Assembly: GCA_027064425.1 (NCBI GenBank)
Contig: JAMOPO010000027.1
Location: forward strand, 62,001 to 126,000
Length of the DNA stretch: 64,000 nt
Direction of reading: 5' to 3'
Source of the DNA: Methanobacteriota archaeon
Lineage (GTDB): Archaea > JAADCQ01 > Methanopyri > Methanopyrales > Methanopyraceae
The notes below the pieces were generated by a model that was not told the origin of the DNA, made no database searches, and worked only from the letters and a program-made list of their open reading frames with translations. Both the position numbers and the translations under genes were made by a program. Below, piece by piece: positions 40,395 through 44,384 of the stretch. The first letter of the stretch is position 1; the number at the start of each line of letters is the position of its first letter.

Positions 40395-41306
40395 TTGACC
40401 GTGGCGAGGACGCTCAGGTTCGGCGATATTAAGGTCCGGCCCCTGGGGTTCGAGAGCTTCGGAGTCAGATCCATGGCCACGCTGATTGAGACCCCCGACG
40501 TGACCGTGCTCGTGGACCCCGGCGTGTCCATACCCCCGAAGCGCTACGGCCTGCCCCCGGCCGACGAGGAGTGGGAGGCGCTGGAGGAGGTCCGGGAGGA
40601 GATACAGCGGGCGGCGGATCGGGCGGACGTGATCACGATCTCGCACTACCACTACGATCACCACACTCCCTTCCTGGAGCGGGAGTACGAGGCGTGCGAC
40701 GAGGAGACGGCCAAGGAGCTCTACTCGGATCGGCTGGTGCTCCTCAAGGACCCGGAGGAGAACATCAATCCGAACCAGATGCGGCGGGCGAAGGCGCTCA
40801 CGAGCCGGCTGGAGGAGGAGGGCGTCGAGTACGAGGTGGCCGACGAGCGCTCGTTCGAGTTCGGAGACACCCGACTCGAGTTCTCGCCCCCGTTCCCGCA
40901 CGGGCCAGAGGGGACCAGTCTGGGGTACGTGCTGTGCCTGCGCGTCCGGACGGAGAACGCGACGGTCCTGCACGCGTCGGACGTGCAGGGACCCGTCTAC
41001 AGGCCCGCCCTGGAGTGGATCGTCGAGGACCGGCCGGATCTTGTACTGATCAGTGGCCCTCCAACGTACCTCCTCGGCTTCCGGTTCTCCAAGGAGAACC
41101 TGGAGAAGGCCTCCGATCACCTCCTGGAGATGTCCGACCGGGTCGGTCAGGTGATCCTGGATCACCACCTACTCCGGGACAAGAAGTACCGGGACCGGCT
41201 CTCGGACGTGTACGAGTCGAGCAACGTGGTCACGGCCGCCGAGGCGGTCGGGGAGGAGGAGCGGCTGCTGGAGGCGCACCGCGACGAGCTGAGCGGGGAG
41301 GAATGA
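40395..41306 (+). CDS. Metallo-beta-lactamase-fold protein, UPF0282 type
   Basis: The 303 residues hold the ligand motif SHYHYDHHTPF (HxHxDH) at about residues 83-93, a later LHASDVQGPVY and a late ILDHHLLRD. The opening, LRFGDIKVRPLGFESFGVRSMA, is characteristic of the archaeal UPF0282 family. Its members are uncharacterised and often found near DNA- or RNA-handling genes. TTG 40395 or GTG 40401 may start it. Confidence 0.82.
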   Translation: MTVARTLRFGDIKVRPLGFESFGVRSMATLIETPDVTVLVDPGVSIPPKRYGLPPADEEWEALEEVREEIQRAADRADVITISHYHYDHHTPFLEREYEACDEETAKELYSDRLVLLKDPEENINPNQMRRAKALTSRLEEEGVEYEVADERSFEFGDTRLEFSPPFPHGPEGTSLGYVLCLRVRTENATVLHASDVQGPVYRPALEWIVEDRPDLVLISGPPTYLLGFRFSKENLEKASDHLLEMSDRVGQVILDHHLLRDKKYRDRLSDVYESSNVVTAAEAVGEEERLLEAHRDELSGEE

Positions 41307-41307
41307 G

Positions 41308-42192
41308 GTGCTTGAGCGCGTCGGTCGCGCGGTCTGGAAGTTCACGGCCATCGTCGGCTACATCGTGGTGAACCTGCCGTGGTTGATCGTTAAGGCGATT
41401 CGAGAGGGGCCGAAGAGGTCGGCGCAGATGGCGTCTCAGCTGGCCGACTCAGCCGAGCGGTCGATCGAGCTCTTCCACCGGCTGACCAGGACCGCGCAGG
41501 AGACGGTGGAGGCCGTCCGCGAGGGCAGGGTCCTTCTGCCCGAGCTCGAGGAGATCCCGTTCAAGGACATCGAGATCAGGGGTAAGAGGATCGCGGCCGC
41601 GCCGAGGATGCCGTGGGATATCCCGGCCCTGACCTTCCAGCTCTCTTTGCTCGCCACCGTTATCTTCGTGGTGCTGGAGGAGATCGTCGTGCCCCCGGTC
41701 TTCCTTTGGGAGTGGCTCTCCGTCCTCTCAACGTTCGTCGCTGCCTTCAGCCTGGGTTGGCTCCGGCGCGTTTCCCCGTTCGAGGAGCACTGGCAGCCGT
41801 ACCGGTACGCCGCTTTGATCATCCTGGGCTCCGTGATAATCTCCGCCGCGCTGACTAACCTGCCTCCACTGGTGGCGCTGATGTTGCCGCTGGAGCTGAC
41901 CCTGCCCGGTGTCGGAGCCTTCGGCATTCCGATCGCGGGCGTCGTTCTGGCGCTGGTGACGCTCCGGCGCAAGTTCACGCGCGACTGGACGCTCGGCGTC
42001 GTGCTCGAGAGGTCCGGTGAGAATCGAGTGGTGGTCATCGTCGGCAGCGACCTGGCCGCGAACACCCTGCCCGGGGAGTACGAGGTGGAGGGGGACGCCG
42101 AGCCGGGCACTCCGGTGATCGTGGAGGTGAGGAGGAGTAAATTCTCGCTGACGGGGGCCGTGCCGACTAGGATCATTAAGGAGGGGTGGTGA
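41308..42192 (+). CDS. Archaeal membrane protein (DUF2101-like)
   Basis: The 294-residue protein has an N-terminal hydrophobic helix (about 13-30), a charged linker, four more membrane segments between residues 105 and 220, and a soluble beta-rich C-terminal domain of about 70 residues ending VRRSKFSLTG. It resembles uncharacterised methanogen proteins of the DUF2101 type; this assignment is from memory and not firm. The GTG start lies 1 base after the UPF0282 stop. Confidence 0.6.
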   Translation: MLERVGRAVWKFTAIVGYIVVNLPWLIVKAIREGPKRSAQMASQLADSAERSIELFHRLTRTAQETVEAVREGRVLLPELEEIPFKDIEIRGKRIAAAPRMPWDIPALTFQLSLLATVIFVVLEEIVVPPVFLWEWLSVLSTFVAAFSLGWLRRVSPFEEHWQPYRYAALIILGSVIISAALTNLPPLVALMLPLELTLPGVGAFGIPIAGVVLALVTLRRKFTRDWTLGVVLERSGENRVVVIVGSDLAANTLPGEYEVEGDAEPGTPVIVEVRRSKFSLTGAVPTRIIKEGW

Positions 42193-42268: not shown

Positions 42269-42952
42269 GTGACGAGGCGCGACCGGCTGGAAGAACTTTT
42301 TCGCCGGGCGGTCGCCTCGGGGCGCGGCCGGCTCAGGGTCCCGAGGGACCTGGATGAGGTCAAGCTGGACGTGGACGCCGTCCGGGACATCGTGCACGCG
42401 GCGCTGGAGCTGGACCACTACCTGACGCGCTCGGCCCCGGATCACGTGGTGAAGGGGCGCGAGGCTAGGCGGGTGGCCAAGCTCCTGAACGATATCCTCT
42501 CGGGTGTGGAGCGGATCGCCGGGCTGGAGGCCGAGGAAGAGGTCAGCGAGGAGCGGGTCCGCGAGGAGTTTCGGGACGCCGTGTTCATCGTGGTGAGGGG
42601 TAGGGAGCGGAAGATCCTGCGCGACCTCGTGGAGCGGCCGGTGGTGCAGACGGGTGGCCCGCTGATTCCCGAGGACTATCGGAAGGTGAACCCGAACCTG
42701 CCCGAGGAGCTGCCCGAGGGGATCATTAAAACGGTGAGGCGGGCCCGGCGAGAGGTCCGAGAGAGCGTGGAGAAGTCCGGCGCGGAGCGGCTGGTGCTGG
42801 TGCGGGAGCGAGGGGACAAGGTGGGTAAGATCCTGGAGGAGGAGCTGCCCGAGATCGCGGAAGAGCTGGGCGTCAAGCACGAGGTGATCGTGGTGGAAGA
42901 CTTCTCGGAGCTGAGTCCCGCGGAGCTCCTGTCGGGGTCCGCTCGGTCTTGA
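42269..42952 (+). CDS. Uncharacterised archaeal protein (DUF2100-like)
   Basis: The 227-residue acidic soluble protein starts at GTG 42269, after a 76-base spacer. It has an N-terminal helical half and a conserved-looking VQTGGPLIPEDYRKVNP segment in the middle, followed by VRRARREVRE and an alpha/beta end. It resembles DUF2100 of methanogens (tentative). It overlaps the ligase-like gene by 4 bases, so the two may work together. Confidence 0.55.
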   Translation: MTRRDRLEELFRRAVASGRGRLRVPRDLDEVKLDVDAVRDIVHAALELDHYLTRSAPDHVVKGREARRVAKLLNDILSGVERIAGLEAEEEVSEERVREEFRDAVFIVVRGRERKILRDLVERPVVQTGGPLIPEDYRKVNPNLPEELPEGIIKTVRRARREVRESVEKSGAERLVLVRERGDKVGKILEEELPEIAEELGVKHEVIVVEDFSELSPAELLSGSARS

Positions 42953-44187
42953 CCGAGACCGTTGAGACCCCCTCCGGGGAGCGCCCCAAGATTCCGGCGA
43001 AGGCCCGGGTGACGTTCTCCCGGACGATGCCGGCCGCCCTGCCCGAAACCGTGGAGCACACGGTACAGCTGTACAAGGCCGAGCTGGAGCACGTGGCCGA
43101 GGAGGAGGTGGGGCTGCGGATCGAGGAGAAGAAGGATGGGACGAACGTGCGCGTGGTCCTGGGGAAGGCGCTCGAGGACGTGGTGGGCGAGCCCATCATC
43201 GCGCACACGCGGAGCTGGGTTCGGGTGGAGGAGGTGGAGAAGTTCGTCGAGTCCGTGATCGATCCCTCCGAGCACTTCCTGACCGTGATCGAGGGGGAGT
43301 TCCTGCCGCTTTCCGCCTTCGGGACGTCGGTCTTCCAGCTGTGGGAGGAGACCCTGGACCACATTGATTACCACGTGCGGCTCATGTCCAAGTACACCCT
43401 GAACCCGCGGAGGAAGCGCGTCCCACGCTCGTGGATCGGGAAGCTCTTCGACCGGCTCTCCAAGCTGAGGAAGCACGTGCGGACGCTGGAGGCCGTGCAG
43501 CGCAGGCTTCCGGACGTGAAGCTGGCGGAGGACGACGAGTTTCAGCGGCTGAGGGACGAGATCGAGCGGCTGACGTCGATCGCCGTCGAGAAGGACTACG
43601 TGCCGGACGACGCGGTGGAGATGCTGAAGGAGGTGCTGAGGCGGATGGATGAGCTGGACGCGTACGAGCCGGAGGAGTCTGAGCCCGTATACTACGTCTT
43701 TGCGGTTGACCTGTTCGACGGCGAGGTGACGGTCCGGGAGCCCAAGACCCGGCAGTACGAGCTCCTCTCGGACTTCGTGGACGGGGAGAACATCAAGCCG
43801 GTCCCGACCACGCTGTGCGATCTGGGCGAGGCGGAGTCCGTGGCCCGGGAGATGATGGAAAGGGTGGAGGAGAACCGGCTGGAAGGCCTCGTGATCAAGC
43901 CGGAGCGGGAGGTCCCGGGCGTCCCGCACGCTCGTAAGGTGCGGGCGGAGTGGTACCTCCGCGGGATGAAGCTCACCTCCAGGCTGAACCTGGACGGGTT
44001 CACGGGCGCCGCCGAGCGGGCCGCAAGGAACGAGACCCGTCGCGCCCTGGCCGCCATCGAGACGGCCTACCTGTACCGGGCGCTGAGGGCGCTCTCCGAG
44101 GGTGACCTGGAGCGGGCCGCGCGCATCGTCTCGGAGGCCGAGAGAACCGTTGAAAGTATGTCGGAGTGGGACGACCCGACGGTTTGA
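42949..44187 (+). CDS. Divergent ATP-dependent polynucleotide ligase-like protein (nucleotidyltransferase superfamily)
   Basis: The 412-residue protein shows the ordered motifs of covalent nucleotidyltransferases. Motif I is KKDGTNVRV with K61 as probable AMP acceptor; a TRS at 88-90 fits motif Ia. EGEF (116-119) fits motif III, YYVFAVDLFDG (249-259) motif IIIa, LEGLVIKP (312-319) motif IV and KVR (331-333) motif V. The KxDGxNVR form recalls archaeal RNA ligases (Rnl3). An insert of about 105 mostly helical residues separates motifs III and IIIa. I infer RNA or DNA end joining, or another adenylation reaction; not proven. Confidence 0.7.
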   Translation: MTETVETPSGERPKIPAKARVTFSRTMPAALPETVEHTVQLYKAELEHVAEEEVGLRIEEKKDGTNVRVVLGKALEDVVGEPIIAHTRSWVRVEEVEKFVESVIDPSEHFLTVIEGEFLPLSAFGTSVFQLWEETLDHIDYHVRLMSKYTLNPRRKRVPRSWIGKLFDRLSKLRKHVRTLEAVQRRLPDVKLAEDDEFQRLRDEIERLTSIAVEKDYVPDDAVEMLKEVLRRMDELDAYEPEESEPVYYVFAVDLFDGEVTVREPKTRQYELLSDFVDGENIKPVPTTLCDLGEAESVAREMMERVEENRLEGLVIKPEREVPGVPHARKVRAEWYLRGMKLTSRLNLDGFTGAAERAARNETRRALAAIETAYLYRALRALSEGDLERAARIVSEAERTVESMSEWDDPTV

Positions 44188-44210
44188 CCGGTCGGGAGGG
44201 GGTGAGGAGA

Positions 44211-44384
44211 ATGGGCAAGAAGGTCCGTGAGGAGCGGGCCGAGCTGCCGCCCGTCCGGGCCGGTATCCTGAGCTTCTGGGACGAGGAGGCGCCCGGCCTG
44301 AGGGTCGATCCAGACCACGTGATCTACGCCTGCTTCATTATCGCCGCGATCCTGGCCATTCTCCACGTGATGATGGTGGTGTAA
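44211..44384 (+). CDS. secG: Preprotein translocase subunit Sec61beta
   Basis: The 57 residues have a basic N-terminus, the segment AGILSFWDEEAPGLRVDPDH and one C-terminal membrane helix (YACFIIAAILAILHVMM). This is the archaeal Sec61beta layout. The ATG at 44211 follows GGGGGTGAGGAG. It lies between the ligase-like gene and engB and supports SecYE in protein export. Confidence 0.93.
   Translation: MGKKVREERAELPPVRAGILSFWDEEAPGLRVDPDHVIYACFIIAAILAILHVMMVV

Follow-up and report, generated by a model that had tools for sequence, protein, structure and literature searches.

Background

Ligases of the Pnkp type are known as bacterial RNA-repair enzymes. Both the Pnkp ligase and CgiRnl, the ligase of the Capnocytophaga gingivalis Pnkp1-Rnl-Hen1 complex (PDB 4xrp/4xru), carry an insertion domain, and in the Pnkp system this domain obstructs the ligase site until Hen1 holds it open (PMC4411300). 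CgiRnl is a separate polypeptide of 394 aa (PMC4411300). It acts as part of a heterohexamer that also contains Pnkp1 and Hen1. From archaea, a putative Pnkp1-Rnl-Hen1 complex has been reported once, on Borg elements (PMC11208441). Another RNA ligase, Rnl3 (TIGR01209; P. abyssi PAB1020, MthRnl, P. pacificus Rnl), has been implicated in circularisation of C/D-box sRNAs in Thermococcus (PMC9014305). M. kandleri possesses 126 mostly circular C/D-box sRNAs, and the mechanism of their circularisation was termed unknown (PMC3695527).

Here we describe a ligase-like protein encoded in a stretch of 64,000 nucleotides from a member of Methanopyraceae (contig JAMOPO010000027.1; this whole stretch is referred to as the window). 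Its motifs and an insert between them had been noticed in a first-pass annotation made from the sequence alone. The new point is the proposed relationship to bacterial Pnkp/Rnl RNA-repair ligases.

Results and discussion

A conserved ligase-like gene of Methanopyri

The gene (42949..44187, plus strand, as all features of the window below) starts with TTG, and its open reading frame translates into 412 aa. We refer to this protein and its orthologues as group A and to a paralogous set, described further below, as group B. The motifs of covalent nucleotidyltransferases follow one another in the order given by the first-pass annotation: motif I as K61-K62-D63-G64 (KKDG, 43129..43140), motif III as EGEFLPLS in residues 115-122 (43291..43314; EGEF 115-118), motif IIIa as VYYVFAVD in residues 247-254 (43687..43710; YYVFAVD 248-254), motif IV as EGLVIKP in residues 312-318 (43882..43902; LEGLVIKP 311-318) and motif V as HARKVRAEWYL in residues 327-337 (43927..43959), which contains K330-V-R332. 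The lysine of motif I is invariant not only in groups A and B but also in Rnl3 and DNA ligase, and K61 is the predicted lysyl-AMP nucleophile. AHTR in residues 85-88 (43201..43212) provides a motif Ia-like arginine, R88, which is invariant across 22 aligned ligases.

Each of the five Methanopyri genomes contains an orthologue, with identity of 68-90%. Because of this identity, the kept synteny and dN/dS of 0.10-0.20 (pairs with unsaturated dS), which indicates purifying selection, we regard the reading frame as more than a chance one. Motifs I, III, IIIa, IV and V are kept in all five, and residues E59, K61, D63, G64, R88, E115, G116, E117, E312, G313, K317, K330 and R332 are identical in the five orthologues and five paralogues. 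The original description as a divergent ligase-type covalent nucleotidyltransferase stands.

Gene order is shared by the five genomes: a JAB/MPN gene, a gene for a metallo-beta-lactamase-fold protein, DUF2101, DUF2100 and the ligase, followed in four of the five by Sec61beta and EngB. In the window, the metallo-beta-lactamase-fold protein and the DUF2101 membrane protein of this conserved block occupy 40395-42192. The DUF2100 gene (PF09873, E 9.7e-47; 42269..42952, plus strand) overlaps the ligase start by four bases (TTGA), as had been pointed out from the sequence, and the same overlap is found in genome G002, as well as in G003 provided that translation there begins at TTG. Such an arrangement is as expected for translational coupling. 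Adjacency of DUF2100 and ligase was seen in Methanopyri alone; flanking genes read in other DUF2100-bearing archaea include no ligase, so that we do not consider DUF2100 a general ligase partner. On the other side, the Sec61beta reading frame (44166-44384) begins within the ligase gene if GTG at 44166 is its start, and a start near 44211 (MGKK...) looks likelier.

Paralogue, distribution and other ligases

Group B consists of proteins of 355 aa that are 30-33% identical to group A and encoded at a separate locus in each of the five genomes. Groups A and B align in hhalign with probability 99.6 across 310 columns, and group B differs by a shorter stretch between motifs III and IIIa. In the genome where its placement was read (G000), the group B gene (L062:5627-6694) directly follows a thiC-like gene, which we take to be thiC.

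Among 394 scanned archaeal genomes, the five Methanopyri alone have full-length matches to the A+B profile, and neither paralogue was found in the 389 others. Outside Methanopyri the profile gives short motif matches only, and those translated proved to be Rnl3. A scan of GTDB contigs likewise returned relatives from Methanopyri only, and none were found in viral contigs, phages or plasmids. Across the 394 archaeal genomes, no protein reaches the cut-off of PF16542, the family of the Pnkp ligase domain; PF16542 matches inspected in other archaea were rejected as Pnkp ligases, being ordinary DNA ligases and one unrelated protein.

All five Methanopyri genomes also harbor canonical Rnl3 as a separate gene (in the source genome at G000:C57:170373, with 355 bits to TIGR01209), RtcB and a Clp1-type 5'-OH RNA kinase, the last encoded elsewhere in the genome, and the source genome contains a separate full DNA ligase gene. 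The presence of DNA ligase and Rnl3 as genes of their own bears out the earlier view that the enzyme is distinct from both. It is not a stand-in for missing RtcB or Rnl3, as both occur in 5/5 genomes. The RtcB gene of G002 (G002:C1:1683577-1686396) shows profile coordinates split within one frame of 995 aa, as expected for an intein. Neither Pnkp nor Hen1 partners were detected, with no TIGR04074 or TIGR04075 match above cut-off in the five Methanopyri genomes. A Pnkp-like kinase match and a Hen1-like methyltransferase match near rtcB were dismissed as partners, since both look generic, one a P-loop kinase and the other a methyltransferase.

Layout of the protein

Between motifs III and IIIa lies a helical insert (residues 125-241, 43321..43671), supported by conservation and by AlphaFold2 confidence (pLDDT mostly >85). 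Its helices H125-150, H160-186, H196-214 and H220-237 were confident in both AlphaFold2 runs. The first-pass annotation was right about an insert of helical nature; at about 113 residues it comes close to the roughly 105 given there, and it forms a helical bundle, not a simple coiled coil. Within the insert, a basic stretch (residues 151-186) is 78% invariant, and this speaks for a conserved function. The C-terminal part (residues 343-412, 43975..44184) is a helical module of Pnkp-like length with two long helices in the model, the first of them 77% invariant.

Motif spacing and tail length of group A fit Pnkp best among the compared ligase classes. Between motifs I and IV, group A has 250-251 residues, group B 205-206 and Pnkp 210-235; Rnl3 has 132-133, T4 Rnl2-like ligases 165-169 and T4 Rnl1-like ligases 125-134. 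The tail, counted from motif IV to the end of the protein, measures 100-102 residues for A, B and Pnkp alike, compared with 156-157 for Rnl3, 130-131 for T4 Rnl2-like and 116-148 for T4 Rnl1-like proteins. Predicted model, Foldseek matches and lengths agree with a Pnkp-type layout, in which a nucleotidyltransferase core bears an insert after motif III and before IIIa, together with a helical module at the C-terminus. That the insert would make the layout unprecedented, as the first-pass annotation implied, is not supported: Pnkp and CgiRnl possess an insertion domain too (PMC4411300) and are the top structural matches, and Pnkp ligases have similar spacing and tail. Judged by its position between motifs III and IIIa, the insert is probably that of the Pnkp/Rnl class rather than a novelty. 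The N-terminal domain is indeed short, with 60 residues before motif I; this suits the Pnkp/Rnl ligase class.

Sequence and structural relationships

For the 412-aa protein there is no PF16542 match, and its best orthologue gives E 0.0067 and 15.1 bits against a gathering cut-off of 28.2. All Pfam and NCBIfam matches of the group A protein are under cut-off, among them PF01068 DNA_ligase_A_M (E 2.5e-5) and RNA_ligase (E 6.5e-5), both just so. The best PDB profile match for group A is CgiRnl, across motifs IV-V. When the A+B profile was aligned by hhalign with ten bacterial Pnkp ligase domains taken from plasmids, we obtained probability 95.6 over 293 collinear columns, and controls with column-shuffled and reversed profiles gave at most 1.4. 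The same procedure yielded 92.5 for Rnl3 but across 40 columns only, 29 for DNA ligase and 0.4 for each of Rnl2 and Rnl1. Taken by segment, the likeness to Pnkp is located in motifs IV-V (95.5-96.6 for A+B and A) and, more weakly, in motifs I-III; the N-terminal, insert and C-terminal segments, each alone, were not significant, and we have withdrawn C-terminal sequence homology to Pnkp as a significant one.

Short signatures may point in the same direction. Motif III of Pnkp ligases (DxELMPWS, corresponding to EGEFLPLS) and their motif V can be written as E(L/I)(L/M)PW and P.(A/G).K.R...YL, and all ten A+B members contain these patterns with substitutions (LPL or LPY; H for P). On this reading, group A would share with the Pnkp ligase domain EL(L/M)P in motif III and P.A.K.R...YL in motif V. 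None of the Rnl3, DNA ligase or T4 sets contains the signatures, under a pattern written after viewing both sets. Upstream of motif I, the element RTMPA (residues 25-29, 43021..43035) resembles TM(S/A)P of Pnkp ligases; a pattern of this type, also set post hoc, occurs in 10/10 members of groups A and B, 10/10 Pnkp, 0/13 Rnl3 and 0/7 DNA ligases. Motif I itself differs, being KKDGTN in group A and KHMGSR in Pnkp ligases.

Structure prediction had been named beforehand as a check of the fold. The first AlphaFold2 run, with an alignment of five orthologues, reached pLDDT 47.6 and was confident in the insert only. The core was left unmodelled, and we discarded Foldseek matches of that model as meaningless. 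The alignment for the second run combined groups A and B with six archaeal DNA ligase core fragments and contained no Pnkp sequence. Its best model had pLDDT 75.7 and pTM 0.64, the other four being at most 58.4. Foldseek ranks 1-13 of this one good model of five are all chains of Clostridium thermocellum Pnkp ligase (PDB 3ty5, 3ty8, 3ty9 among the best) or CgiRnl, with E-values from 1e-11 to 5e-9, followed by DNA ligases (2.4e-5, despite the DNA ligase fragments in the alignment) and Rnl3 (9e-5). TM-scores are moderate, about 0.5, so the domains are either oriented differently or of uncertain orientation. The three best matches in the viral library are giant-virus phosphoesterase proteins, presumably Pnkp-like.

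Probable explanation and alternatives

Taken together, we find it fairly likely, on the strength of sequence comparison and modelling, that group A represents a polynucleotide ligase of the Pnkp/Rnl type known from bacterial RNA repair, which stands alone, depends on ATP and would seal RNA with 5'-phosphate and 3'-OH ends. The same enzyme could be a highly diverged, lineage-specific derivative of Rnl3 that lost its C-terminal domain and gained an insert, its Pnkp-like features being convergent. Rnl3 has its ligase motifs in common with group A and is likest around motif I, where group B matches it locally (probability 95.3, 42 columns), and PF09414, an RNA ligase family, matches all ten A+B members. 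The core-sequence tree sets A+B weakly beside Rnl3 (86/70, unstarred, long branches flagged). A clade of A+B with Pnkp was not recovered in this tree, nor was it rejected by the AU test (p-AU 0.302, compared with 0.27 for A+B with DNA ligase), so that the tree does not resolve ancestry of A+B between Pnkp, Rnl3 and DNA ligase. Group A taken separately matches Rnl3 with just 37.5, confined to 69 columns, and its 9.8 bits are far from the TIGR01209 cut-off of 136.9. Moreover, motif spacing is different (132-133 in Rnl3, 205-251 in A and B), the C-terminal region of Rnl3 is longer, and in Foldseek the Rnl3 structures stand below every Pnkp and CgiRnl chain. Derivation from Rnl3 appears unlikely to us.

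Two further possibilities have considerably less in their favor. An enzyme that transfers AMP or GMP to RNA 5' ends (or another target), thereby adenylating or capping them and performing only steps 1-2 of ligation, would be compatible with the nucleotidyltransferase core, which capping enzymes share. Neither motif VI nor an OB domain of the capping-enzyme kind is apparent, ligases are the nearest structures, and ligase residues of motifs III, IIIa, IV and V are retained, which makes such a function quite improbable. About as improbable, or marginally more so, is a DNA ligase-like enzyme acting on DNA nicks, for example in repair, to which the PF01068 match and a weak match to human LIG1 in motifs IIIa-IV could be ascribed. 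The protein lacks an OB-fold domain, its approximately 75 residues after motif V being helical in the model, and the 60 residues preceding motif I comprise no DNA-binding domain; the genome encodes a full DNA ligase separately, and Foldseek E-values for DNA ligases are more than three orders of magnitude weaker than for Pnkp/CgiRnl.

Proposed mechanism and significance

Returning to the Pnkp/Rnl-type ligase, we claim that group A is built like such an enzyme, as judged from sequence and model, and it probably works like one. We claim no formal membership in the Pnkp class, since the PF16542 cut-off is not reached, no kinase-phosphatase is fused to it and no Hen1 partner was found, in which respects it differs from bacterial Pnkp; it resembles CgiRnl as a separate polypeptide with an insert. 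Adenylation, RNA preference, gating and pathway are what we infer for it. K61 would take AMP from ATP and pass it to a 5'-phosphate RNA end, and attack of 3'-OH on the adenylated 5' end would then seal the RNA. The insert and the C-terminal module of about 70 residues might control access to the active site and take part in binding RNA or a partner, as in Pnkp/Rnl. The 5'-phosphate ends could be made in trans by the Clp1-type kinase. As to the substrate, broken tRNA, C/D-box sRNA in the course of circularisation or some other RNA would be our guess.

A bolder scheme, which we put forward tentatively and consider possible rather than probable, is that the two Methanopyri paralogues constitute an archaeal RNA ligase family of their own, ancient and in structure akin to Pnkp/Rnl. 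Such a family would do without Hen1 and Pnkp, would rely on the Clp1 kinase in trans and on a partner of its own, perhaps DUF2100, and would represent, in this hyperthermophile, a second ATP-dependent route of RNA repair or circularisation besides Rnl3 and RtcB.

If our assumptions are true, a chromosomal, lineage-wide and partner-free archaeal version would mean that the Pnkp ligase architecture is not bound to Hen1-coupled repair. The enzyme would also be a candidate thermostable RNA ligase. For M. kandleri, the presence of extra RNA ligases in addition to Rnl3 turns circularisation of C/D-box sRNAs into a concrete, testable question.

Within the plasmid-borne comparison material, a Pnkp-type gene of a Paenibacillus plasmid (L101:5158-5868) lies near a Thg1-family gene and a gene for a class I SAM methyltransferase, possibly forming an RNA repair island.
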